Assembly: GCA_017460515.1 (NCBI GenBank)
Contig: JAFUAY010000010.1
Span: 62,001-126,000 of the forward strand
Reading direction: 5' to 3'
Origin: Prevotella sp.
GTDB taxonomy: Bacteria > Bacteroidota > Bacteroidia > Bacteroidales > Bacteroidaceae
Length of the DNA: 64,000 nt
Numbering within the stretch: the stretch's first letter is position 1; the number at the start of each line of letters is the position of its first letter. The translations under genes and the position numbers were made by a program. Of this stretch, positions 17,478 through 58,437 are shown in pieces. The notes beneath the pieces were generated by a model that made no database searches, was not told the DNA's origin, and was given only the letters and a program-made list of their open reading frames with translations.

Positions 17478-19544
17478 ATGAAGAAAACTTTTCTAAGTAT
17501 GCTGATGCTCTGTGCAACGACGGTTGCCAGTGCCCAAAACCCTTATCTTCCCCTTTGGGAACACCTGCCTGATGGCGAGCCCCGTGTATTCGAGGACCCT
17601 GATCAGCCAGGAAAACTGCGTGCGTATATCATTGGTTCGCACGATGTGACCTACACCGCTTATTGCGGACCAGACATCCGTATGTGGTCGGCACCCGTTG
17701 AGGATTTATCGCAATGGCGCGACGAGGGTCCCATCTTCTCATGGTTCGTCAACGGACAATGGGATACCATGTATGCACCTGACCTCGTAGAGACGGTTGA
17801 TAAGTCTACGGGCAAGAAGACTTATTGGCTCTATCCTCACAGTCGCGGATGGCGTCGTGTGGCTATGGTCTGCAAGGGCGATCGTCCTAATGGTCCGTTC
17901 ACACCTGTGAACCTTACTGCCGATGGCACACAGTGTCTGCCTGGTTCACTCATCGATTTCGACCCCTCTGTATTTATTGAGCCTGTCACGAACAAGAAAG
18001 ACAAGGACTTCGACAAGGGCTATCGTGCTTACGTTTTTTATGGTTTCCAGCACTCCACGGCCTGCGAGCTCGATCAAGACAAGATGTACTGTAAGCGTGA
18101 GGGAACGGAACTTATCGATCCTTTCATTCCTGCCAGCAGTCGTGATGGTAAGCTCCTGGATAAGGAGGGTAGCGAGTATAAGGCACTCTATAAGGGTCAG
18201 AACCCGCTCGACTTCAATTTCTTCGAGGCTTCGTCTATCCGTCAGGTAGGCAACAAATATGTGATGGTCTTCTCTGGCTACTCTGGCAAAGAGTACGGAC
18301 TTGGCAATACAAACTCTGCCCTGCGTTATGCCTTTGGTGATTCTCCCCTTGGCCCTTGGCGTTCAGGAGGCGTGTTGGTAGATTCACGTGGCGTAGTACT
18401 TAATGAGGACGGTTCAAAGCTTATCACAACAAATGCAGGTCATAACACTCATGGCTCGCTTCAGGAAATCAATGGTCAGTGGTATGTGTTCTATCATCGT
18501 CCGCCCCGTGGCTTCGGCAATGCACGTCAGGCAATGGTTGCTCCAGTGAAGATTGAGTGGGATAAGAAGCCCGTAGCTAAGGGTGGCGTTGTCCGTATTA
18601 CCGGCTACGACCCCTTCAACGAAGGTGTAAAGGGAAAAGGCAAGAACGAGTGGGTGGCAGCAGCTGCTGACGGCAATACCTATACGGGTGCTGAGGTGAC
18701 CAGTGAAGGCTTCCAGATTTTCGGTCTTCCACCTTATAATTATTATAGTGCAGGTATTGCCTGCTTCATGTATGGTCCTAACAGCAACAACTGGATGCAG
18801 GACAATCATGATGTATGGAGCAACTCCATGGACCTCGCTGGCATTCAGAACGGCGGTATCGTAGGCTTCAAATACTTCGGCTTTGGCGGTCTGGCTCAGG
18901 ATACCAAGGGCTGTAAGGCCTTCGAAGGCACTAAGAAGGGCGACAATACCCATCTCTATCTGAACCTGACCTACAGTGGTAAGGGTGCCTTTAAGATTCA
19001 TGTCAAGATGGATGATCCATGGAAGGGTAAGGACCTCGGTGTTATCTATGTCGGTGACAAGACTCCTACCGATCAGGCGGTTACGATTTCTCATTTAGTT
19101 CCTGATGTGGAAGGACTGACTGGCAAGCACGCTATCTACCTCGTCGTTGAGGGCCCAGAAGTGAAGCAACCCGAACAGCCCCAAGGTCGTCCGCAGTTTG
19201 GCCGTCGTCCACAGGAGCCTCAGCGTCCACAGGGACTTTTCGATCTCCATGGAATCGGCTTCAGCAAGACTAACAGTTATCCTGTTCCTATGGTACCTCA
19301 GGTTACCATCACAGTAGACGGACAGAAACTGAATATTCCTGAGCGTCCGATGATGTCGACCAACCAGAACGGGTATACCGAGTGCAATCACTATCAGCTT
19401 TACGGTCCAAGAAAGGCTGGCGCCAAGATTGAGGTTAAGCCCAATAATCCAAACGTGAAGTATGAGATTCTCACTGGCAAGGATTACCGTGCTACAGTGA
19501 AAGCTACTTATCAAGGCAAAACGAAAGTATTCTTGATAAATTAA
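17478..19544 (+). CDS. Secreted GH43 glycoside hydrolase with C-terminal beta-sandwich
   Basis: A 688-residue exported GH43 enzyme (signal peptide ending TVASAQ). The five-bladed propeller occupies about residues 20-375, with Asp in VFEDPDQPG, APDLVE, Asp in DFDPSVFIEP, acid Glu in FNFFEASSIR and the His in AGHNTHGSLQ. A second domain (about 390-570) is a carbohydrate-binding-type beta-sandwich, interrupted near residue 560 by a Pro/Gln/Arg-rich stretch (QPQGRPQFGRRPQEPQRPQ) before the last strands. It has its own promoter and is divergent from GH97. Likely an arabinofuranosidase or xylosidase on xylan; substrate is inferred from neighbours. Confidence 0.88.
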   Translation: MKKTFLSMLMLCATTVASAQNPYLPLWEHLPDGEPRVFEDPDQPGKLRAYIIGSHDVTYTAYCGPDIRMWSAPVEDLSQWRDEGPIFSWFVNGQWDTMYAPDLVETVDKSTGKKTYWLYPHSRGWRRVAMVCKGDRPNGPFTPVNLTADGTQCLPGSLIDFDPSVFIEPVTNKKDKDFDKGYRAYVFYGFQHSTACELDQDKMYCKREGTELIDPFIPASSRDGKLLDKEGSEYKALYKGQNPLDFNFFEASSIRQVGNKYVMVFSGYSGKEYGLGNTNSALRYAFGDSPLGPWRSGGVLVDSRGVVLNEDGSKLITTNAGHNTHGSLQEINGQWYVFYHRPPRGFGNARQAMVAPVKIEWDKKPVAKGGVVRITGYDPFNEGVKGKGKNEWVAAAADGNTYTGAEVTSEGFQIFGLPPYNYYSAGIACFMYGPNSNNWMQDNHDVWSNSMDLAGIQNGGIVGFKYFGFGGLAQDTKGCKAFEGTKKGDNTHLYLNLTYSGKGAFKIHVKMDDPWKGKDLGVIYVGDKTPTDQAVTISHLVPDVEGLTGKHAIYLVVEGPEVKQPEQPQGRPQFGRRPQEPQRPQGLFDLHGIGFSKTNSYPVPMVPQVTITVDGQKLNIPERPMMSTNQNGYTECNHYQLYGPRKAGAKIEVKPNNPNVKYEILTGKDYRATVKATYQGKTKVFLIN

Positions 19545-19546
19545 GC

Positions 19547-19584
19547 AAAACATTTGCATTTTCGCTCACTTAATCGTACCTTTG
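19547..19584 (+). promoter_or_regulatory. Upstream copy (P1) of a duplicated pyrH promoter
   Basis: A 38-bp block with TTTG at 19553-19556, a 20-bp spacer and TACCTTTG at 19577-19584. It is identical to the block at 19622-19659. It begins 3 bp after the stop of the GH43 gene. Confidence 0.75.
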
Positions 19585-19602
19585 AGCTCCGCTCGAAGGT
19601 AC
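19576..19602. repeat. Hairpin overlapping the P1 -7 box of pyrH
   Basis: GTACCTTTGAGC and GCTCGAAGGTAC form 12-bp arms with one mismatch around a 3-base loop. The left arm contains the P1 -7 box, so the right arm carries a near -7 box (TACCTTCG) pointing the other way. Confidence 0.75.
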
Positions 19603-19621
19603 TTTTGTTCGGAAAATCACA

Positions 19622-19659
19622 AAAACATTTGCATTTTCGCTCACTTAATCGTACCTTTG
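19622..19659 (+). promoter_or_regulatory. Downstream copy (P2) of the duplicated pyrH promoter
   Basis: Second exact 38-bp copy: TTTG at 19628-19631, 20-bp spacer, TACCTTTG at 19652-19659, followed by CAG. A start just downstream would give a leader of about 20 nt before the pyrH ATG at 19686. Confidence 0.8.
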
Positions 19660-19685
19660 CAGCAATATTATTATTCAACAAGATT

Positions 19686-26875: not shown

Positions 26876-27196
26876 ATGGCAACACTTGATGAAGAACTGC
26901 TGATGGACGAGGCCGAGTCTCGCCGTGAGATTGCTTTCATCCGAGAGCAACTGCCCAACGATCTGAAAGAGAAATACTCCGACGACGAACTGCTCTTTAT
27001 CATTGATGCCATCGGAACCTATTTCTATACCAGTGGCATCTTGGAAAGCAATGACGACGAAGTAGACGTAGACATGGAGGTTGTTGCCGACTTTGTTTGC
27101 AATGAAGCGAAAGAGGAAGGCGAAGGGCCTTTTGATCCACAGGAAGTATTCTTCGTCATTCAGGCCGACCTTGATTTCCAAGAGCAAAGCGTTTAA
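26876..27196 (+). CDS. Small acidic conserved protein downstream of trxA
   Basis: A 106-residue, strongly acidic, soluble protein without signal peptide or membrane segment. Notable stretches are DEAESRREIAFIREQLP and DDEVDVDMEVVADFV. I recognise no domain with a known role. Tight coupling to trxA (3-bp gap) suggests co-expression, perhaps a redox-related partner, but no Cys pair is present (a single Cys near residue 83) so a direct thiol role is not supported. Confidence 0.75.
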   Translation: MATLDEELLMDEAESRREIAFIREQLPNDLKEKYSDDELLFIIDAIGTYFYTSGILESNDDEVDVDMEVVADFVCNEAKEEGEGPFDPQEVFFVIQADLDFQEQSV

Positions 27197-27249
27197 CGAG
27201 CCCTCTTTATATAAATGCAGAACGTTTAACGAGCCCTCTTTATATAAAT
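27190..27249. repeat. 27-bp direct repeat after the trxA operon
   Basis: The 27 bp at 27190-27216 recur exactly at 27223-27249 (33-bp period), beginning CGTTTAACGAG and ending TATATAAAT. The first copy includes the end of the small acidic gene. A recent short tandem duplication is the simplest reading. Confidence 0.85.
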
Positions 27250-28695: not shown

Positions 28696-28803
28696 TTTGA
28701 CATTTTACTCGCTTATTCGTACGCTGAGATTGTGTCTCAAAGGTACTACCATTCGAAAAAGCAAAAATAAATTTGGCTTTTTGCTTACTTATTCGTACCT
28801 TTG
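28696..28803 (+). promoter_or_regulatory. Composite purL promoter region with decayed P1, hairpin and P2
   Basis: P1 has TTTG (28696-28699) and a 20-bp spacer but a damaged -7 box (TACGCTGA). A hairpin follows (GAGA...TCTC then AAAGGTAC, about 28719-28746), which contains a perfect TACCTTTG on the minus strand. P2 has TTTG (28772-28775), a 20-bp spacer and TACCTTTG (28796-28803). The layout aligns with the pyrH upstream region over about 110 bp. P2 would give a leader of about 38 nt before purL. Confidence 0.7.
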
Positions 28804-28848
28804 CAGGCAAATTGTAAAAACAATATTTTTAAAGGCTCAAAGAGAACT

Positions 28849-31800
28849 ATGATTTTTTTCTTCAAGACCCCACAACAGAGCGTGATTGCCACTCAGGTGG
28901 ATCATCAACTCACACAGACAGAAGTACAAGAACTTTGTTGGCTCTACGGCAATGCAGAGCTCACCGACGCCCAGACCATGGAGGGATTCTTCGTGGGTCC
29001 ACGTCGTGAAATGGTGACTCCTTGGTCAACAAATGCCGTTGAGATTACTCAGAATATGGGACTCAGCGGCATTTTGCGTATAGAGGAGTATTACCCCGTA
29101 GCATCAAAAGATGCTGAGCATGACGAGATGCTGCAGCGTATGTACGATGGTTTGAATCAGGACATTTTTACGATTAACATCAAGCCTGAGCCCATTAAGT
29201 ATGTGGATAATTTGGAGGAATATAACGAGCAGGAGGGTCTTGCTCTGAGCTCTGAAGAGATTGAGTATCTCCACGGCTTGGAGAAGCAGAACGGTCGTCC
29301 GCTGACGGATTCTGAAATCTTCGGCTTCGCCCAGATCAACTCCGAGCACTGTCGTCATAAGATTTTCGGTGGTACCTTTATCATCGATGGCAAAGAGATG
29401 GAGTCAAGTCTCTTCGCCATGATTAAGAAGACCACCCAGGAGAACCCAAACAAGATTCTTTCCGCCTATAAGGACAATGTGGCTTTTGCACAGGGGCCGG
29501 TTGTTGAGCAGTTTGCTCCGAAAGACCAGAGCACAAGCGACTACTTCCAGGTAAAAGACATAGAGAGCGTTATCTCGCTGAAGGCTGAGACCCATAACTT
29601 CCCAACAACCGTAGAGCCATTCAACGGTGCTGCTACGGGTACTGGTGGTGAGATTCGCGACCGTATGGGTGGTGGCGTAGGTTCTTGGCCTATCGCTGGT
29701 ACCGCTGTTTATATGACCGCCTATCCACGGCTTCGAGAAGACGTGGATAATGTAGAGTGTAGAACGGAGAATGTAGAGTTTGCTACCGCCTCTGAATCAG
29801 CAAAAAAGGGGAGCGCGGAAGCAAACTCTACACTCTACACTCTAAACTCTACACTTAAAAGGGACTGGGAGGATATCCTTCCCGTTCGCCAGTGGCTGTA
29901 TCAGACACCAGAGCAGATTCTGATCAAGGCTTCTAATGGTGCTTCTGACTTCGGTAACAAGTTCGGTCAGCCGCTGATTTGCGGTTCTGTACTGACCTTC
30001 GAACATCAGGAGAAGGCTGGAAACTGCTGTGGCACAGCAGCGCAAGCAACGAAATACGCCTATGATAAGGTCATCATGCTGGCTGGTGGTGTTGGTTACG
30101 GCACTAAGCGTGACTGTCTGAAGAAGGAGCCTCAACCAGGCAACAAGGTGGTCGTTGTTGGTGGTGATAATTACCGCATCGGTCTTGGTGGTGGTTCTGT
30201 GTCTTCAGTAGATACGGGTCGTTATAGCAACGGTATCGAGTTGAACGCCGTACAGCGTGCCAACCCAGAGATGCAGAAGCGTGCCTATAACCTGGTGCGT
30301 GCCCTTTGTGAGGAAGATGTGAACCCCGTTGTTTCTATCCACGACCACGGATCAGCTGGCCACCTGAACTGCTTGTCAGAGCTCGTTGAGGAGTGTGGCG
30401 GTGAGATTGATATGACCAAGCTGCCTATCGGTGATAAGACTTTGAGCTCTAAGGAAATCATTGCCAATGAGAGTCAGGAGCGCATGGGCCTGCTGATTGA
30501 CGAGAAGCATATCGAACATGTACGTAAGATTGCTGAGCGCGAGCGTGCTCCGCTGTATGTCGTTGGTGAGACTACTGGCGATGCCCACTTCTCATTCAAG
30601 CAGGGCGACGGTGTGAAGCCATTCGACCTCGACGTGGCTCAGATGTTTGGTCACTCACCTAAGACCATTATGAAAGATAATACGGTGGAGCGTCACTATG
30701 CCGATGTTGACTATGCGGGAAAATCTGGAAAGTCTGGCATTTCCAAAGAACAGCTTAACGAGTACCTTGAGCGCGTACTCCAGCTGGAGGCAGTGGCTTG
30801 TAAGGACTGGTTGACCAACAAGGTAGACCGTTCTGTAACAGGTAAGATAGCCCGTCAGCAGTGTCAGGGTGAGATTCAGTTGCCATTGAGCGACTGCGGT
30901 GTTGTTGCCCTCGACTATCGTGGTCAGAAGGGTATTGCTACCGCTCTCGGACATGCTCCTCAGGCAGGTCTTGCTAATCCTGCTGCTGGAAGTGTGCTCT
31001 CAGTAGCTGAAGCTTTGACTAATATTGTTTGGGCTCCTTTGGCAGAGGGAATGGATTCGCTGAGTCTGAGTGCTAACTGGATGTGGCCTTGTCGCTCTCA
31101 GGAGGGTGAGGATGCCCGTTTGTATGCCGGTGTGAAGGCACTCTCAGATTTCTGCTGCGACCTGCATATCAACGTGCCAACAGGTAAGGACTCGCTGTCT
31201 TTGAGCCAGCAGTATCCTAACGGCGAGAAGATTATCTCTCCGGGAACAGTCATCGTTTCTGCTGGTGGTGAGGTGTCTGATATTAAGAAGGTGGTAAGTC
31301 CTGTCATCAAAAACGACAAGCACTGTTCGCTCTACCATATCGACTTCTCGTTCGATGAACAGCGCCTTGGTGGTTCTGCCTTCGCCCAGAGCTTAGGCAA
31401 GGTAGGCGATGATGTTCCAACCGTTAAGAACCCAGAGTACTTTGCTGATGCCTTCATGGCTGTACAGCAGATGATAGAGAAGGGCTGGATTCTGGCAGGT
31501 CACGATATTTCTGCCGGTGGTCTGATTACTACGCTGCTTGAGATGTGCTTTGCCAATCAGAAAGGCGGTATGCATATCAACCTGCACGATATCTGTGCTG
31601 ATGGCGACGTTGTAAAGACACTCTTCGCTGAGAACCCAGGCGTAGTCATCGAGGTTAGCGACGAGTACAAGCAGGAGTTCAAGGACTTTATGGAAGAGCA
31701 GGGCGTAGGCTTTGCTAAGATTGGCTATCCAGTTGAGGACAGCCGCGAAATTGAAGTTGTTTATCCTGATGCAAACGGGGAGACCGTTTCCCGTCAGTTT

Positions 31801-32733
31801 GATATTGATGCCCTCCGCGATGTTTGGTATAAGACCAGCTACCTGCTCGATCGCAAGCAGAGCTTCAACGGCAAGGCTAAGGAGCGCTTCGAGAACTACA
31901 AGAAGCAGCCGCTGGAGATGAAGTTCAACAAAAACTTCACAGGCACATTGGCACAGTACGGTATTTCTGCCGATCGTCGTCAGCCCTCTGGCATCAAGGC
32001 CGCCATCATCCGTGAGAAGGGAACCAATGGTGAGCGTGAGATGGCTTACTGCCTCTATCTTGCTGGCTTCGATGTGAAGGACGTGATGATGACCGACCTG
32101 ATTTCTGGTCGTGAGACCCTTGAGGATATCAATATGATTGTGTTCTGCGGTGGCTTCTCTAACTCCGACGTACTCGGTTCTGCTAAGGGTTGGGCAGGTG
32201 CCTTCCTCTTCAATCCTAAGGCAAAGGAGGCTCTCGATAAGTTCTATGCCCGTAAGGACACTCTCTCACTGGGTATCTGTAACGGTTGTCAGTTGATGGT
32301 GGAGCTCGGCCTCACTGGTGCCAAGGGTGCTAAGATGCTGCACAACGACTCACATAAGTTCGAGAGTGAGTTCATCAGCCTGAGCATTCCTCAGAACAAC
32401 AGCGTGATGTTTGGCTCACTGAGTGGTAACAAGCTCGGTCTGTGGGTAGCTCACGGAGAAGGCAAGTTCTCTCTGCCGGAAGCAGAGAGCACGTATAATG
32501 TGATTGCCAAGTACAACTACGCTGGCTATCCTGCTAATCCTAACGGATCTGATTACAATGTAGCAGGTATCTGCTCTGCCGATGGTCGTCATCTCTGCAT
32601 GATGCCACACTTGGAGCGTGCCGTCTTCCCTTGGCAGAACGCGTGGTATCCTGCTGACCGCCGCAATGATGAAGTTACGCCTTGGATTGAGGCATTCGTC
32701 AATGCACGTAAGTGGGTGGAAGCACAAAAATAA
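28849..32733 (+). CDS. purL: Phosphoribosylformylglycinamidine synthase (large type)
   Basis: A 1294-residue single-chain FGAM synthase (PurL) that converts FGAR and glutamine to FGAM in purine synthesis. The N-terminal domain is followed by two AIRS-like halves (ATP-site segments FGFAQINSEHCRHKIFGG and SVISLKAETHNFPTTVEPFNG) and a C-terminal class I glutaminase with nucleophile Cys in GICNGCQLM (about residue 1144) and the His/Glu pair in MPHLERAVFP. I chose ATG 28849 over a TTG at 28801 lying inside the promoter. About 36 residues at 300-336 are encoded by a palindromic repeat and interrupt a normally short loop between MTAYPR and the conserved WLYQTPEQ. Confidence 0.96.
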   Translation: MIFFFKTPQQSVIATQVDHQLTQTEVQELCWLYGNAELTDAQTMEGFFVGPRREMVTPWSTNAVEITQNMGLSGILRIEEYYPVASKDAEHDEMLQRMYDGLNQDIFTINIKPEPIKYVDNLEEYNEQEGLALSSEEIEYLHGLEKQNGRPLTDSEIFGFAQINSEHCRHKIFGGTFIIDGKEMESSLFAMIKKTTQENPNKILSAYKDNVAFAQGPVVEQFAPKDQSTSDYFQVKDIESVISLKAETHNFPTTVEPFNGAATGTGGEIRDRMGGGVGSWPIAGTAVYMTAYPRLREDVDNVECRTENVEFATASESAKKGSAEANSTLYTLNSTLKRDWEDILPVRQWLYQTPEQILIKASNGASDFGNKFGQPLICGSVLTFEHQEKAGNCCGTAAQATKYAYDKVIMLAGGVGYGTKRDCLKKEPQPGNKVVVVGGDNYRIGLGGGSVSSVDTGRYSNGIELNAVQRANPEMQKRAYNLVRALCEEDVNPVVSIHDHGSAGHLNCLSELVEECGGEIDMTKLPIGDKTLSSKEIIANESQERMGLLIDEKHIEHVRKIAERERAPLYVVGETTGDAHFSFKQGDGVKPFDLDVAQMFGHSPKTIMKDNTVERHYADVDYAGKSGKSGISKEQLNEYLERVLQLEAVACKDWLTNKVDRSVTGKIARQQCQGEIQLPLSDCGVVALDYRGQKGIATALGHAPQAGLANPAAGSVLSVAEALTNIVWAPLAEGMDSLSLSANWMWPCRSQEGEDARLYAGVKALSDFCCDLHINVPTGKDSLSLSQQYPNGEKIISPGTVIVSAGGEVSDIKKVVSPVIKNDKHCSLYHIDFSFDEQRLGGSAFAQSLGKVGDDVPTVKNPEYFADAFMAVQQMIEKGWILAGHDISAGGLITTLLEMCFANQKGGMHINLHDICADGDVVKTLFAENPGVVIEVSDEYKQEFKDFMEEQGVGFAKIGYPVEDSREIEVVYPDANGETVSRQFDIDALRDVWYKTSYLLDRKQSFNGKAKERFENYKKQPLEMKFNKNFTGTLAQYGISADRRQPSGIKAAIIREKGTNGEREMAYCLYLAGFDVKDVMMTDLISGRETLEDINMIVFCGGFSNSDVLGSAKGWAGAFLFNPKAKEALDKFYARKDTLSLGICNGCQLMVELGLTGAKGAKMLHNDSHKFESEFISLSIPQNNSVMFGSLSGNKLGLWVAHGEGKFSLPEAESTYNVIAKYNYAGYPANPNGSDYNVAGICSADGRHLCMMPHLERAVFPWQNAWYPADRRNDEVTPWIEAFVNARKWVEAQK
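29749..29856. repeat. Palindromic repeat copy 1, in frame inside purL
   Basis: A 108-bp imperfect palindrome. Core arms TGTAGAGTTTGCTACCGC (29772-29789) and GCGGAAGCAAACTCTACA (29815-29832) pair at 17 of 18 positions; outer arms of GTAGAGT-type repeats extend the stem to about 40 bp. Its right arm reads AEANSTLYTLNSTL in the purL frame. It shares the core GCTACCGC...GCGG(T/A)AGCAAACT with copies at 35505-35603 and 37481-37627. Confidence 0.85.
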
Positions 32734-35504: not shown

Positions 35505-35603
35505 ATGAATAAAAAGATAGCTACCGCATTATTCCGTAGGCGCATAATTATACTATGCGTCCTACTCTTCAATGCGGTAGCAAACTCTACGCTCTACACT
35601 ATT
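35505..35603. repeat. Palindromic repeat copy 2, encoding the RlpA-like export signal
   Basis: Perfect 11-bp core arms GCTACCGCATT (35520-35530) and AATGCGGTAGC (35571-35581), with an inner hairpin (GTAGG-CGCATA with TATGCG-T-CCTAC). The right arm continues AAACTCTACGCTCTACAC. Left arm reads MNKKIATAL and right arm AVANSTLYTI in the RlpA-like frame. Confidence 0.85.
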
Positions 35604-36074
35604 CCCTCTACACAGCTCCACGCTCAGGCTTTTCACGGCATAGCTTCCTATTATGCGAAGCGGGCCACAGGTAGTATCACGGCAAATGGCGAACGACTGC
35701 ATCATGACTCCATGACCTGTGCCCACCGCACACTGCCGTTCGGTACGCTGCTGAAAGTGACGAACCTGGTGAACAACCGTTCCGTGATTGTACGTGTGAA
35801 CGATCGCGGACCTTATATCCGCAGACGTATTATCGACCTTTCGTGGGGTGCCGCCCGTGAGTTGGGCATGTTGCATCGCGGCATCGTGAAGGTGCAGTGC
35901 GAGTCGGCCTACAACATCACTATCCCCCTGAGGGCCGAACCCATGAAAATCGCACTTCCAAAGTTTGAGGAACTCAACATTGAACTGCCTAACACGCTGA
36001 AGCCCATCTGGCAGGAACAAGACCTGATTGTTCCTCTCAAAAAGGTAAAAACACAAGCCAAAAAGCGGAAATAG
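35505..36074 (+). CDS. RlpA-like septal-ring lytic transglycosylase domain protein
   Basis: A 189-residue exported protein with an RlpA-type double-psi beta-barrel (about residues 45-130). Conserved residues are visible in GIASYYAKRATG, the His in CAHRTLPFGT and the Asp in VRVNDRGPYI, the pair used to cut peptidoglycan lacking stem peptides. The signal peptide (n-region MNKKIATALFRRR, core IIILCVLLF, cleavage near LHAQA) is encoded almost wholly by a palindromic repeat. A basic C-terminal tail follows. No SPOR domain. It precedes the fimbrial operon but has a promoter gap after it. Confidence 0.85.
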   Translation: MNKKIATALFRRRIIILCVLLFNAVANSTLYTIPSTQLHAQAFHGIASYYAKRATGSITANGERLHHDSMTCAHRTLPFGTLLKVTNLVNNRSVIVRVNDRGPYIRRRIIDLSWGAARELGMLHRGIVKVQCESAYNITIPLRAEPMKIALPKFEELNIELPNTLKPIWQEQDLIVPLKKVKTQAKKRK

Positions 36075-36124
36075 TTCGTTTTTCAACGTTTTTTTCGTTA
36101 AATCCATTACTTTTCTCCTATTTT

Positions 36125-36157
36125 TTTGCAGTAATTAGAAGAAAAGAGGTATATTTG
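36125..36157 (+). promoter_or_regulatory. Promoter of the fimbrial operon
   Basis: TTTG (36125-36128), 21-bp spacer, TATATTTG (36150-36157) followed by CAA. The only clear promoter before the genes at 36221-52103. Leader about 55-60 nt. Confidence 0.7.
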
Positions 36158-36220
36158 CAACCAATAGTAGCAATACTATATTAGTAACGATTGCAAAAAA
36201 CTGACTAAAACGAACTATAA

Positions 36221-37480
36221 ATGCGGTTCACCGCACTGTTGACATATCTATTCCTGTCAATGATTTCATTGGCACAGACGAGCCCTCATCATAGCCAAGA
36301 CTCATTGCTTACCGACACGCTCCAGCTGTCGGCACGCATTGTTTTTCCCCTTGGCAGGGCGAATATCGACACCCGCCTGGACAACAACAGTTATGAGCTA
36401 GGCAAGGTTAACAGCACGCTGGGCACTATTCGCAATGACACCAGCTACACCCTTCGACGTATTACCATCAGCGGCTTCAGCTCGCCTGAAGGTCCGCTGG
36501 CTCTCAACCGCCGACTGTCACGCGAGCGTATCGACAGTCTCAAGGTCTATCTTTCAGAGCGAATAGACCTGCCGCCTGGCAAGATCAAAGCCCGTGAATG
36601 GGGCGAGGATTGGAAAGGCGTTGAGGCTTTCGTCTTGCAATGTAGTGATAAACAGCTGCCCCATAGGGCGCAACTGCTTAATATCATCCGCCTGCATTGG
36701 CCCGATGAGGTGAAGGAGCGCCAGATTCGTCGTCGTTATCCGCAGGACTTCCAGTACCTGATGCGCCACTGCATGCCCTTTTTGCGCCGTGCCGAACTTT
36801 CCCTCAATTTTTTATACGCGCGTGTGCATAACGCCAGCGTAAGCGCTAGCGTGTGCGATGGTTCTCCCATCGTTCCCCCCGTTGACACCATCGCTCCCTC
36901 TGTTGACACCATCACTTCCCCCGTTGATACCCTCCCCGTTATTCCTTGTCCCAGCGACCATCGCTTTGCTGTAAAGAGCAACCTGCTCTATGATGCAGCG
37001 TTGATTCCCAATATTGGCATTGAGGTCTATCTGGGAAAACGACTGTCGCTGACTGCCGACTGGTTCTACACTTGGTTCTCGTCAGACAATCGTCACCGCT
37101 ACTGGCAGGGCTATGGTGGCTATCTGGGTGCCCGTTACTGGTTCAGTCCGCTGATTAGCAAGGACCGTCCCTGCTCACCTTTTGACTTCAAGGGCCATCA
37201 CTTAGGCATCTATATGCAGGGCATGACCTATGATGTGGAATGGGGCGGACGCGGCTATCAGGCAGCCCACTTCGGCTTCGGTGGCGGTGTGGAGTATGGC
37301 TATGCTTTCAAGTTGAATCGTTGTCTCCGTCTCGACCTGTCTCTTGGAGTAGGCTTCCAGGACGGTGAATATAAGGAATACGTTCCCCTCGATGGTCACT
37401 ATGTGTGGGATAGCACCCATAAGCGCCACTGGTGGGGACCCACTAAGGCCGAAGTGTCACTGGTGTGGGTGATTAAGTGA
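36221..37480 (+). CDS. OmpA-like plus DUF3575 outer-membrane protein of a fimbrial locus
   Basis: A 419-residue exported protein. After a signal peptide (YLFLSMISLAQ) comes an OmpA-like segment (about residues 35-200, with ITISGFSSPEGPLALNRRLS, typical of the peptidoglycan-binding fold). A linker of four PVDTI-like repeats (about 220-240) leads to a DUF3575 beta-barrel (about 247-419, FAVKSNLLYDAALIPNIGIE to the C-terminal EVSLVWVIK). Such proteins often head Bacteroidales Fim/Mfa-type loci. First gene of the operon, 10 bp before the FimB/Mfa2-like gene. Confidence 0.82.
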   Translation: MRFTALLTYLFLSMISLAQTSPHHSQDSLLTDTLQLSARIVFPLGRANIDTRLDNNSYELGKVNSTLGTIRNDTSYTLRRITISGFSSPEGPLALNRRLSRERIDSLKVYLSERIDLPPGKIKAREWGEDWKGVEAFVLQCSDKQLPHRAQLLNIIRLHWPDEVKERQIRRRYPQDFQYLMRHCMPFLRRAELSLNFLYARVHNASVSASVCDGSPIVPPVDTIAPSVDTITSPVDTLPVIPCPSDHRFAVKSNLLYDAALIPNIGIEVYLGKRLSLTADWFYTWFSSDNRHRYWQGYGGYLGARYWFSPLISKDRPCSPFDFKGHHLGIYMQGMTYDVEWGGRGYQAAHFGFGGGVEYGYAFKLNRCLRLDLSLGVGFQDGEYKEYVPLDGHYVWDSTHKRHWWGPTKAEVSLVWVIK

Positions 37481-37627
37481 AGAGTGAAGAATGAATAGTA
37501 AGAGAATAGCTACCGCAATGAAGAGGCTGGGACGATGGACAGGTGTTCGTCGCCGCATGGAGACTCTTTGCACCGCTCTTATCAGTGCGGTAGCAAACTA
37601 TTCACTATTCACTATTATCTGTTCACT
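37481..37627. repeat. Palindromic repeat copy 3, encoding the FimB/Mfa2-like export signal
   Basis: Perfect 9-bp core arms GCTACCGCA (37509-37517) and TGCGGTAGC (37586-37594), flanked by AGTGAA/GAATAGT-type arms on the left and TATTCACTATTCAC on the right. Left arm reads MNSKRIATAM, right arm AVANYSLFTI in the downstream gene frame. Starts at the stop codon of the preceding gene. Confidence 0.85.
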
Positions 37628-38546
37628 GTTCATGTCCTGCGAGTACAAGGACCTTTGCTACGACCATAACCACTGGGCGTTGGCTACTCCTGCCTTTGAC
37701 TGGAGCAAGGCGCCGAGCGCTAATCCTAAGAGTATGACGGTGCTCGTCTATGATAAGGCGAGCCTTGGTAGTGAGCCTGAGCGCTACGACTACCGACTGG
37801 TGCCTCCCTATCCTGAGATTCGCCTGACCCCAGGTGATTATCAGGCGCTGACCTATAACAACGATACTGAGACTATCCTGCTGCGCGGATTGGAAGAGCC
37901 TTCAACTGTAGAGGCCTACACCCGCACCTCGTCTATCGAGGAAGGCACCATGATAGATACCCGTGCACAGATGCCGCGAGCCGCTGGCAACGAGCCCGTT
38001 ATCCTGGAGCCCGACTTCCTATGGGCAGGGCTCTCAGAAGATATCCATATCAGTCTCGACTCCCTCTATAAGATCAAGATGATGCCCGAGCCCCGCTTCG
38101 TTGAGATAGATATCACCGTTAAGAACGTGCCTAACCTGAAATATGTAGGTCAGATGGGTGGAGCCCTCACGGGCCTCGCCGCATCAATCTTCCTTGAGAC
38201 GGGCAAGCTGAGCGAGAACACCGCTACGCAGGCATTTACTTGTGAGGCCGTTGATGGCAGCACCATTCACATGAAGTTCCGTTGCTTTGGCCATTGTCCC
38301 TATCATGCTGAAGAAAACAAAAATCAGCATGTGTTCACCCTCTATGCCGTCCTTGCCGACGGTTCAAAATGGTACTACACACAGGATGTCTCTGAACAGA
38401 TGCATGACCCAGAGACCAATCCTGATGAGTACAACCTCTATCTGGAGCTCGACGAGCTACCTATCCCCAAGCCTATCGTCAACGGCTCCGGCTTCCAGCC
38501 CACCATCGACGACTGGCAAGGTGTTGAGATCGACGTTGGAATGTAA
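37491..38546 (+). CDS. FimB/Mfa2-type fimbrial anchor lipoprotein
   Basis: A 351-residue lipoprotein of the FimB/Mfa2 family that caps and anchors Mfa/FimA-type fimbriae in the outer membrane. The lipobox SLFMSC is followed by EYKDLCYDHNHW, a characteristic family start. Two beta-sandwich regions follow (PEIRLTPGDYQALTYN and VEIDITVKNVPNLKYVGQMGGALTG). The n- and h-regions of the signal peptide (starting MNSKRIATAM and ending SAVANYSLFTIICSLFM) come from palindromic repeat copy 3. Frame and length are intact. Confidence 0.88.
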   Translation: MNSKRIATAMKRLGRWTGVRRRMETLCTALISAVANYSLFTIICSLFMSCEYKDLCYDHNHWALATPAFDWSKAPSANPKSMTVLVYDKASLGSEPERYDYRLVPPYPEIRLTPGDYQALTYNNDTETILLRGLEEPSTVEAYTRTSSIEEGTMIDTRAQMPRAAGNEPVILEPDFLWAGLSEDIHISLDSLYKIKMMPEPRFVEIDITVKNVPNLKYVGQMGGALTGLAASIFLETGKLSENTATQAFTCEAVDGSTIHMKFRCFGHCPYHAEENKNQHVFTLYAVLADGSKWYYTQDVSEQMHDPETNPDEYNLYLELDELPIPKPIVNGSGFQPTIDDWQGVEIDVGM

Positions 38547-58247: not shown

Positions 58248-58423
58248 AATCAATAGAGTTACGGCTTGCAATCAATAGAGTTACGGGTGCTAATCAATAG
58301 AGTTAGCACCCGTAACTCTATTGATTACGATGGCTAAACATGGTGTTTACAAAAGGTAAAGCCTAGTTTTGCTAAAAGCAAAGCCTAGTTTTGCGATGGG
58401 CAAAACTAGGCTTTGCATATAGT
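58248..58423. repeat. Eight 22-bp units with long nested palindromes
   Basis: Eight consecutive 22-bp units, each starting AA. Units 1-3 share AATCAATAGAGTTA; unit 4 is the complement. Units 2-4 form a perfect 24-bp-arm hairpin (58270-58293 with 58303-58326). Units 6-8 share AAAGCCTAGTTTTGC and its complement, forming a 17-bp-arm hairpin (58378-58394 with 58400-58416). They fill the gap between the convergent PL9 and GH98 genes and would form very strong hairpins in both transcripts. Confidence 0.9.
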
Positions 58424-58437
58424 AAGCTTAAAATCAC

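Follow-up and report, generated by a model that had tools for sequence, protein, structure and literature searches.

In-frame palindromic repeats of Prevotella share cores and arms with elements enclosing PF05635 genes

A 64,000-nt stretch of a Prevotella sp. genome (assembly GCA_017460515.1, contig JAFUAY010000010.1, positions 62,001 to 126,000; hereafter, the window) contains three copies of a palindromic repeat that lies within protein-coding genes. The repeat is dispersed, keeps one fixed, open reading frame inside genes, and has its cores and arms in common with elements that enclose a PF05635 gene. Taken as a whole, it is probable that these palindromes form a coding-compatible family of gene-less relatives of the PF05635 elements. 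The genome of the window (G000) is represented by a 2.27 Mb assembly with 65% completeness, and the searches covered 150 genomes of the genus, 118 genomes of the phylum and a named collection of 84,980 species (genomes and fetched loci are cited by G and L numbers). Leaders were judged by eye and by hydrophobicity, and the names RlpA, RelE, XRE, LpxH, RadC and lipoprotein are presumptive.

Anatomy and reading frame of the palindromes

The element consists of tandem 7-bp units, a core GCTACCGC, a spacer, the inverse core GCGGTAGC and inverted 7-bp units (Table 1). Outward from GCGGTAGC AAACT, the arm is a run of 7-bp units (CTCTACA, CTATTCA and others), which is inverted on the opposite side. 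The spacer measured 12-42 nt in the collected set, a range set by the pattern used, and 46, 70 and 25 nt in the window. As the original prediction described, two palindromes lie at the starts of the RlpA-like gene and the gene downstream of it; their cores were read directly, and both encode similar peptides in one shared frame (left arms, MNKKIATAL and MNSKRIATAM; right arms, AVANSTLYTI and AVANYSLFTI). That description missed the 7-bp tandem structure of the arms and a third copy, which was found by a repeat search inside purL, has longer arms than the other two, encodes NVECRTENVEFATASESAKKGSAEANSTLYTLNSTL and has GCGGAAGC as its right core. With up to two mismatches, GCGGTAGCAAACT matched five times in the window against 1.15 expected, a count reached by none of 100 shuffles, and these five matches were arms of three elements. 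RNA folding compared with shuffles gave z = -8.64 for the third copy and -6.3 for copy 1 (0/200 as good in each case) and -4.1 for copy 2 (1/200). No Rfam family reached its gathering score between 29000 and 38800 at E up to 1. The sole match was to an animal microRNA model; it fell on the hairpin in purL, scored 26 bits against a gathering score of 58 (E 0.14) and was taken as a chance hairpin match.

Table 1. Palindrome copies in the window and their host genes (positions are those of the window; the names RlpA and lipoprotein are presumptive)
Feature	Position	Strand	Description
Copy 1	35505..35613	+	GCTACCGC at 35520-35527, GCGGTAGC at 35574-35581; repeats of the right arm continue to about 35613; supplies the signal-peptide region of the RlpA-like protein
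RlpA-like (DPBB) gene, host of copy 1	35505..36074	+	PF03330, E=2e-24
Copy 2	37483..37627	+	GCTACCGC at 37509-37516, GCGGTAGC at 37587-37594; flanked on each side by degenerate 7-bp arms; supplies the leader of a putative lipoprotein
DUF5119 gene, host of copy 2	37491..38546	+	PF17145, E=4.2e-41; putative lipoprotein by eye
Third copy	29751..29853	+	Arms 29751-29789 and 29815-29853, 85% complementary, 25 nt apart; in frame in purL
purL (FGAM synthase), host of third copy	28801..32733	+	Pfam GATase_5, AIRS_C and FGAR-AT domains

The named collection, searched with a stricter pattern than the genus and possibly missing records close to the genome of the window, yielded 73 loci with 74 distinct complete palindromes. 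Forty-eight of these were inside long open reading frames (ORFs), defined as a frame without stops over 75 aa or more to either side, and 26 were not, although some of the latter lie near locus ends or just under the cut-off and are possibly genic (L258, L290). All 48 genic palindromes were read in the frame EFATA...AVANS and all had a core-to-core spacing divisible by three, whereas the spacing of the 26 others left remainders of 0, 1 and 2 in 12, 5 and 9 cases; some of the 48 are orthologous, so that they represent fewer than 48 events. Perfect 7-bp units would place TAG at the fourth codon before TTT GCT ACC. None of the 48 translated arms has TAG at this codon, whereas it is present in 25/48 of the untranslated arms belonging to these elements and in 24/52 arms of the other copies. 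Because an open frame defines the genic class, its lack of stops is partly built in, which is true neither of the single frame nor of the contrast between the arms; what is informative is how often the untranslated arm carries TAG. It is the complete palindromes that keep the fixed frame.

Since the complete genic copies preserve one frame, are free of stops and have a spacing that is a multiple of three, they are very probably translated, adding some 20-40 residues to the protein at tolerant sites. Alternatively, the insert might be removed before translation, by excision as in an intervening sequence or by ribosome bypass, leaving a protein without it. There are precedents, in that RNase III cuts intervening sequences out of 23S rRNA (PMC4990558) and bypassed palindromes are mentioned for Magnusiomyces mitochondria (PMC6649704). 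However, upkeep of the frame in 48/48 copies, and in 15/15 of the second family described below, together with avoidance of TAG on the translated arm while it is common on the other, would be needless if the stretch were skipped, and removal before translation is therefore very improbable.

Hosts were searched for 20 of the 48 genic copies, 10 with Pfam and 10 with NCBIfam. Pfam identified GH95, a tetrapyrrole methylase, LeuA, a DUF5107/TPR protein, an M3 peptidase, a beta-lactamase-fold/flavodoxin protein, ArgRS, an AcrB-family pump, PurL (at a site different from that in the window) and MetH. NCBIfam gave PatB, AsnB, XseA, PriA, ClpA and a CarA-CarB ORF above its cut-offs, and an arabinanase, an AmpG-like transporter and MenC below them; the host in L235 had no NCBIfam match. 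In the CarA-CarB case (L301:4785-7955), CarA and CarB form one ORF with the palindrome at the junction, and the element appears to have fused the two subunit genes.

A second core family, TATGATTAC...GTAATCATA, which was also seen around other PF05635 genes and was searched on its own, forms dispersed palindromes in 21/150 genus genomes (control, 0). Among 61 copies read, 15 are inside genes, all in one frame (YDY...NH), and the length leaves a remainder of 1 on division by three in 15/15 of these; for the 46 others, remainders of 0, 1 and 2 occurred in 20, 17 and 9 copies. The second family thus independently repeats the frame result of the first. At about 590-1560 of L352, two second-family palindromes, of which the first is slightly degenerate, enclose a pair of small genes (126 and 108 aa). 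This pair, which by eye resembles a RelE-like/XRE toxin-antitoxin pair, might make the arrangement a composite element; the related L356 has one palindrome and no gene pair.

Leader copies, distribution and re-use of sites

From the two leader copies, the original prediction proposed that a mobile palindrome acts as a ready-made signal peptide, converting downstream sequences into exported proteins. The analysis bore out a palindrome that is dispersed and has the capacity to code in one fixed frame, but not a role as signal peptide. The third copy sits in the middle of PurL, and the element is therefore not a signal-peptide module. Across all fetched loci, a sample that is not unbiased, 232 distinct right-arm sites were tabulated: 67 were internal and in frame, 13 were N-terminal, 151 were not open for 100 aa downstream in that frame and one was at an edge. 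The window's own RlpA copy was counted as internal, there being no stop just upstream. Only two of the 13 N-terminal sites looked like clear signal peptides (L020, L082) and one like a weak one (L056), as judged by eye and from hydrophobicity, and many internal hosts are cytosolic enzymes. Furthermore, orthologues without the element have ordinary-looking leaders anyway, both RlpA-like (e.g., L161, L171 and L177; 18/30 loci viewed) and DUF5119 (L189-L191; 5/8 loci viewed), so that the element need not have converted a non-exported protein.

Leader copies do recur. The leader of the RlpA orthologue L160 (G031) carries the same element, L082 (G041) is a further case, and three of the four leader copies (copy 2 of the window, L082 and L160) use hydrophobic units encoding SLFTI/SLFTF, whereas copy 1 has mainly ordinary STLYTI-type units. 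The hydrophobic units are in keeping with selection acting locally on these copies, not with a special function, and conversion into exported proteins as the purpose of the palindrome is largely refuted. Signal-peptide formation is a side effect of the palindromic repeat, the leader being one tolerant site among others. The leaders of L165, L167 and L188 look assembled from other short repeats.

In G000, 18 exact and seven one-mismatch cores were found, against three for a reversed-pattern control. They correspond to 23 distinct places, two elements having been matched in both arms. By eye, 10 of the 23 are in frame inside long ORFs, two are leaders and 11 are intergenic or unclear. The 10 in-frame sites include half copies near C-termini in L006 and L007 and one in a different frame in L014. 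The L006 and L007 half copies, near position 1500, are left arms in the EFATA frame within two similar ORFs on one contig that have an apparent C-terminal sorting domain. Across the genus, the exact 13-mer occurred in 37/150 genomes with 239 matches, compared with six for the reversed pattern, and 15 of the 150 genomes were core-rich (at least five exact cores). All 73 loci from the named collection are titled Prevotella or other Bacteroidales, nearly all are metagenome-assembled genomes, and many are named from the rumen or other ruminant stomachs. The palindromes are dispersed between and inside genes of gut and rumen Prevotella and relatives.

Presence at a given site varies among relatives. 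The PurL loop YPRL-RDWEDILPVR is short in 24 of the 28 relatives read (30 loci, of which one was G000 itself and one did not match the pattern). The exceptions are G004 (a palindrome with a different core), G023 (a C-rich palindrome), G034 (a short repeat) and G021 (a longer stretch), besides G000 itself, where the present element occupies the loop. Similarly, ArgRS carries a full copy in L260 and half of a second-type element at the same site in L244, with flanks 96% identical, and L235/L333 and L234/L328 have different families at the same site in different genomes. Different elements at the same sites indicate either that tolerant places are used repeatedly or that residents are converted between types. 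The C-rich type in G023 PurL (L129, in frame) is a third kind of palindrome, rich in CCCCTCC/GGAGGGG, which was also observed near other genes in L078 and L089.

PF05635 genes between inverted arrays

In four of the earliest loci examined, the same inverted cores enclose a gene of about 120 codons, at a distance of 398-479 bp from each other. The enclosed gene belongs to PF05635, the "23S rRNA-intervening sequence protein" family of four-helix bundles (Pfam E=7.5e-28 for the G023 protein), and 2rld was the sole solved relative at E up to 0.01. PF05635 matches occurred in 130/150 genus genomes, at up to 15 places per genome. Among 30 loci obtained by protein search, 7 had GCTACCGC-type cores (core A), 15 had the core TATGATTA (on both flanks in 13) and 8 had neither. 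The core-A loci are in G055, G105, G139, G023, G097, G041 and G066, with exact cores on one flank in G105 and on both flanks in the other six. That the same cores flank a PF05635 gene in seven genomes is new here. All seven genomes are among the 15 core-rich ones, in whose core counts the gene's own two cores are included. By eye, the flanks of the core-A loci are protein genes, although no rRNA search was made.

Most PF05635 loci examined in the genus have the inverted arrangement. The best flank-to-flank inverted repeat scored at least 15 in 46/60 loci, compared with 0/637 control windows and 0/33 control ORFs, all taken from these loci at a distance from the gene, and at least 13 in 51/60 loci, compared with 5/637 and 0/33; the 60 loci were the 30 best by profile and the 30 best by protein rather than a random sample, and both thresholds were chosen after the data had been seen. 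The gene in L216 was misplaced in this run (score 7; 18 in an earlier motif-based run). That earlier run, which covered 30/60 loci and gave at least 15 in 29/30 against 17/153 control ORFs that possibly overlap elements, is superseded, and a first control with shuffled flank pairing was discarded, its scores of up to 223 probably reflecting similar loci paired across genomes. The arrays consist mostly of 7-8 bp units. A protein tree separates 30 proteins in one deep clade, with arms of period 7 in 24 cases and none called in 6, from another 30, in which the period is 8 in 15, 7 in 2, 9 in one, 10 in one and uncalled in 11. The seven core-A proteins group inside the 7-bp clade with modest support (97/68).

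In the phylum set, PF05635 was found in 89/118 genomes. Among the 30 loci returned, 9 scored at least 15 (controls, 0/360) and 13 at least 13 (controls, 3/360).

A PF05635 gene with differing arms and cores was also observed after an ORF ending ...EEARVELGF or similar in about 13/30 loci (L205-L207, L210, L214, L216, L217, L219, L220, L222, L223, L226, L230). In most of these, by eye, an ORF beginning ...FLSDAHLGS, presumably lpxH-like, then follows the PF05635 gene. This recurrent context is either a hot spot or an old insertion with arms renewed in place. At other loci, the gene precedes what we take by eye to be a radC-like ORF.

Three further repeats were observed in the window. A 78-nt repeat containing TACCTTTG has three copies (19517-19669 and 28736-28813), one of them upstream of purL, and resembles Bacteroidota promoters. 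At 58270-58425, a perfect 24-nt inverted repeat lies beside a 36-nt one (78% complementary), and two tandem 33-nt repeats at 27184-27249 are 94% identical.

Origin and relation to known systems

A full element would have the order inverted array, core, PF05635 gene, core, inverted array, which is the plan of the 23S rRNA intervening sequences, and the short palindromes would be its gene-less forms. These might spread in trans through the PF05635 protein, or through host repair acting on the hairpin. The PF05635 protein, as a relative of Avd, perhaps binds the hairpin as RNA or single-stranded DNA. Template switching and slippage would keep the two arms of each copy alike, and selection would leave only in-frame insertions in genes, those out of frame being lost. 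A nucleic-acid-binding helper is plausible because PF05635 is said to resemble Avd of diversity-generating retroelements, with structures said to be homologous (PMC10053308), and because S23/IVP genes lie between inverted repeats (PMC4990558). No reverse transcriptase and no template or variable repeat was noticed in the loci read, although no search was aimed at them.

Several observations weigh against this interpretation. Many cores are one-armed, and the half copy shared by L014 in G000 and L091 in G121 is read in another frame (GSKL). Several palindromes are orthologous, and the counts are not of independent events. The genome of the window has no PF05635 match at its 65% completeness, neither core was present at the 8 PF05635 loci noted above, and among the loci examined, in a check that was not exhaustive, the other eight core-rich genomes had no core-A PF05635 gene. 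Beyond the genus the flanking arrays are still seen, but in weaker or more decayed form. Neither a target-site duplication nor an empty site attributable to one clean event was resolved in the PurL relatives or the same-site pairs (three pairs compared), the best pair, L260 and L244, having two different element types at one site. No movement of the elements has been observed, and we know of no DNA-cutting activity for PF05635. That PF05635 moves the palindromes is an inference.

The main rival requires no dedicated helper: quasi-palindromes would grow wherever inserts are tolerated, through template switching and slippage as the DNA replicates, and the position of PF05635 genes between arrays would have an unrelated cause. 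It gains this standing because the two arms of one copy are alike but unlike those of other copies, and the different element types at the same site in relatives (PurL, L260/L244, L235/L333 and L234/L328) are also in its favour. However, local growth would not give 8-bp cores conserved between unrelated sites and genomes, and the core-A PF05635 genes cluster on the protein tree. We therefore regard an origin without a helper as unlikely, though deserving serious attention.

Short dispersed palindromes of moderate copy number are usually miniature inverted-repeat transposable elements (MITEs) or repetitive extragenic palindromes (REPs) moved by a transposase, and an ordinary MITE or REP moved in trans by an insertion sequence or a REP-associated tyrosine (Y1) transposase (RAYT) has to be considered. 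The architecture resembles that of REPtrons, in which small dispersed palindromes accompany a gene flanked by the same repeats (PMC3733652), but the gene enclosed here is PF05635 rather than a Y1 tyrosine transposase. Cores and arms are common to the palindromes and the PF05635 elements; these would be MITE-type terminal inverted repeats if the PF05635 elements are autonomous. A PF01797 (Y1_Tnp) search of 10 genomes found no RAYT partner beside the cores: there was no match in G000, G023, G105 or G139, and seven weak matches (E 1e-7 to 6e-5) in six other genomes were not core-enclosed within 1.5 kb flanks. Among these loci, L371 has one GCGGTAGC without the following AAACT, and L366, L367 and L370 have one second-family half-core each. 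In the G023, G041, G055 and G097 loci read, PF05635 was the only gene seen enclosed by inverted cores, although other transposase families were not searched. A transposase-driven MITE or REP is accordingly improbable, and kinship with PF05635 elements remains the preferred interpretation.

Coding palindromes are known mainly from Rickettsia, and to our knowledge no mover has been named for them. Like the Rickettsia palindromic elements, which are palindromic, dispersed and in frame in unrelated genes (PMC10969869 and PMC3733652), the Prevotella repeat folds as a palindrome, is dispersed at unrelated loci and lies in frame in ORFs of unrelated function. It differs in belonging to another phylum, in its tandem 7-bp arms with a short conserved core, in comprising at least two core families, and in having cores that also flank a PF05635 gene. 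The two were compared by behaviour and not by sequence, so likeness is claimed rather than membership. In 23S rRNA intervening sequences, an S23/IVP (PF05635) gene lies between inverted repeats that form a long stem, and their function and origin are described as unclear (PMC4990558). This likeness concerns the full-length relatives only, as the window copies have no such gene. Moreover, the loci read by eye are placed within or between protein genes, and the window copies and named hosts are protein-coding rather than 23S rRNA (again, without an rRNA search), the Prevotella arms are arrays of 7-8 bp units, and gene-less copies are dispersed in genes. Among Bacteroidales repeat elements, PINSR of Prevotella intermedia has no terminal inverted repeats and is thought to be non-coding (PMC4755523), and the MITE BrickBuilt of Porphyromonas gingivalis contains tandem repeats; the paper on it describes prokaryotic MITEs as almost exclusively intergenic and does not contain the term "in-frame" (PMC4596501). 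The Prevotella repeat differs from both. In the open-licence literature, as far as surveyed, no report was found either of Prevotella palindromes with coding capacity or of inverted tandem arrays around PF05635 genes.

More tentatively, and with less confidence than for the Prevotella family itself, PF05635 genes may mark out an extensive, so far unrecognised class of Bacteroidota mobile elements, built of inverted arrays of 7-8 bp units around a short core and the gene, that mobilise gene-less palindromes in trans, with the 23S rRNA intervening sequences as a site-restricted branch and the in-frame translated copies reshaping housekeeping proteins. The present results suggest that core enzymes of free-living bacteria can accommodate an insertion of 20-40 residues, and that the sites concerned are used by different elements in different lineages. 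The translated palindromes share their cores and arms with intervening-sequence-protein elements in a genus that has cultured members, which opens two old questions to experiment.

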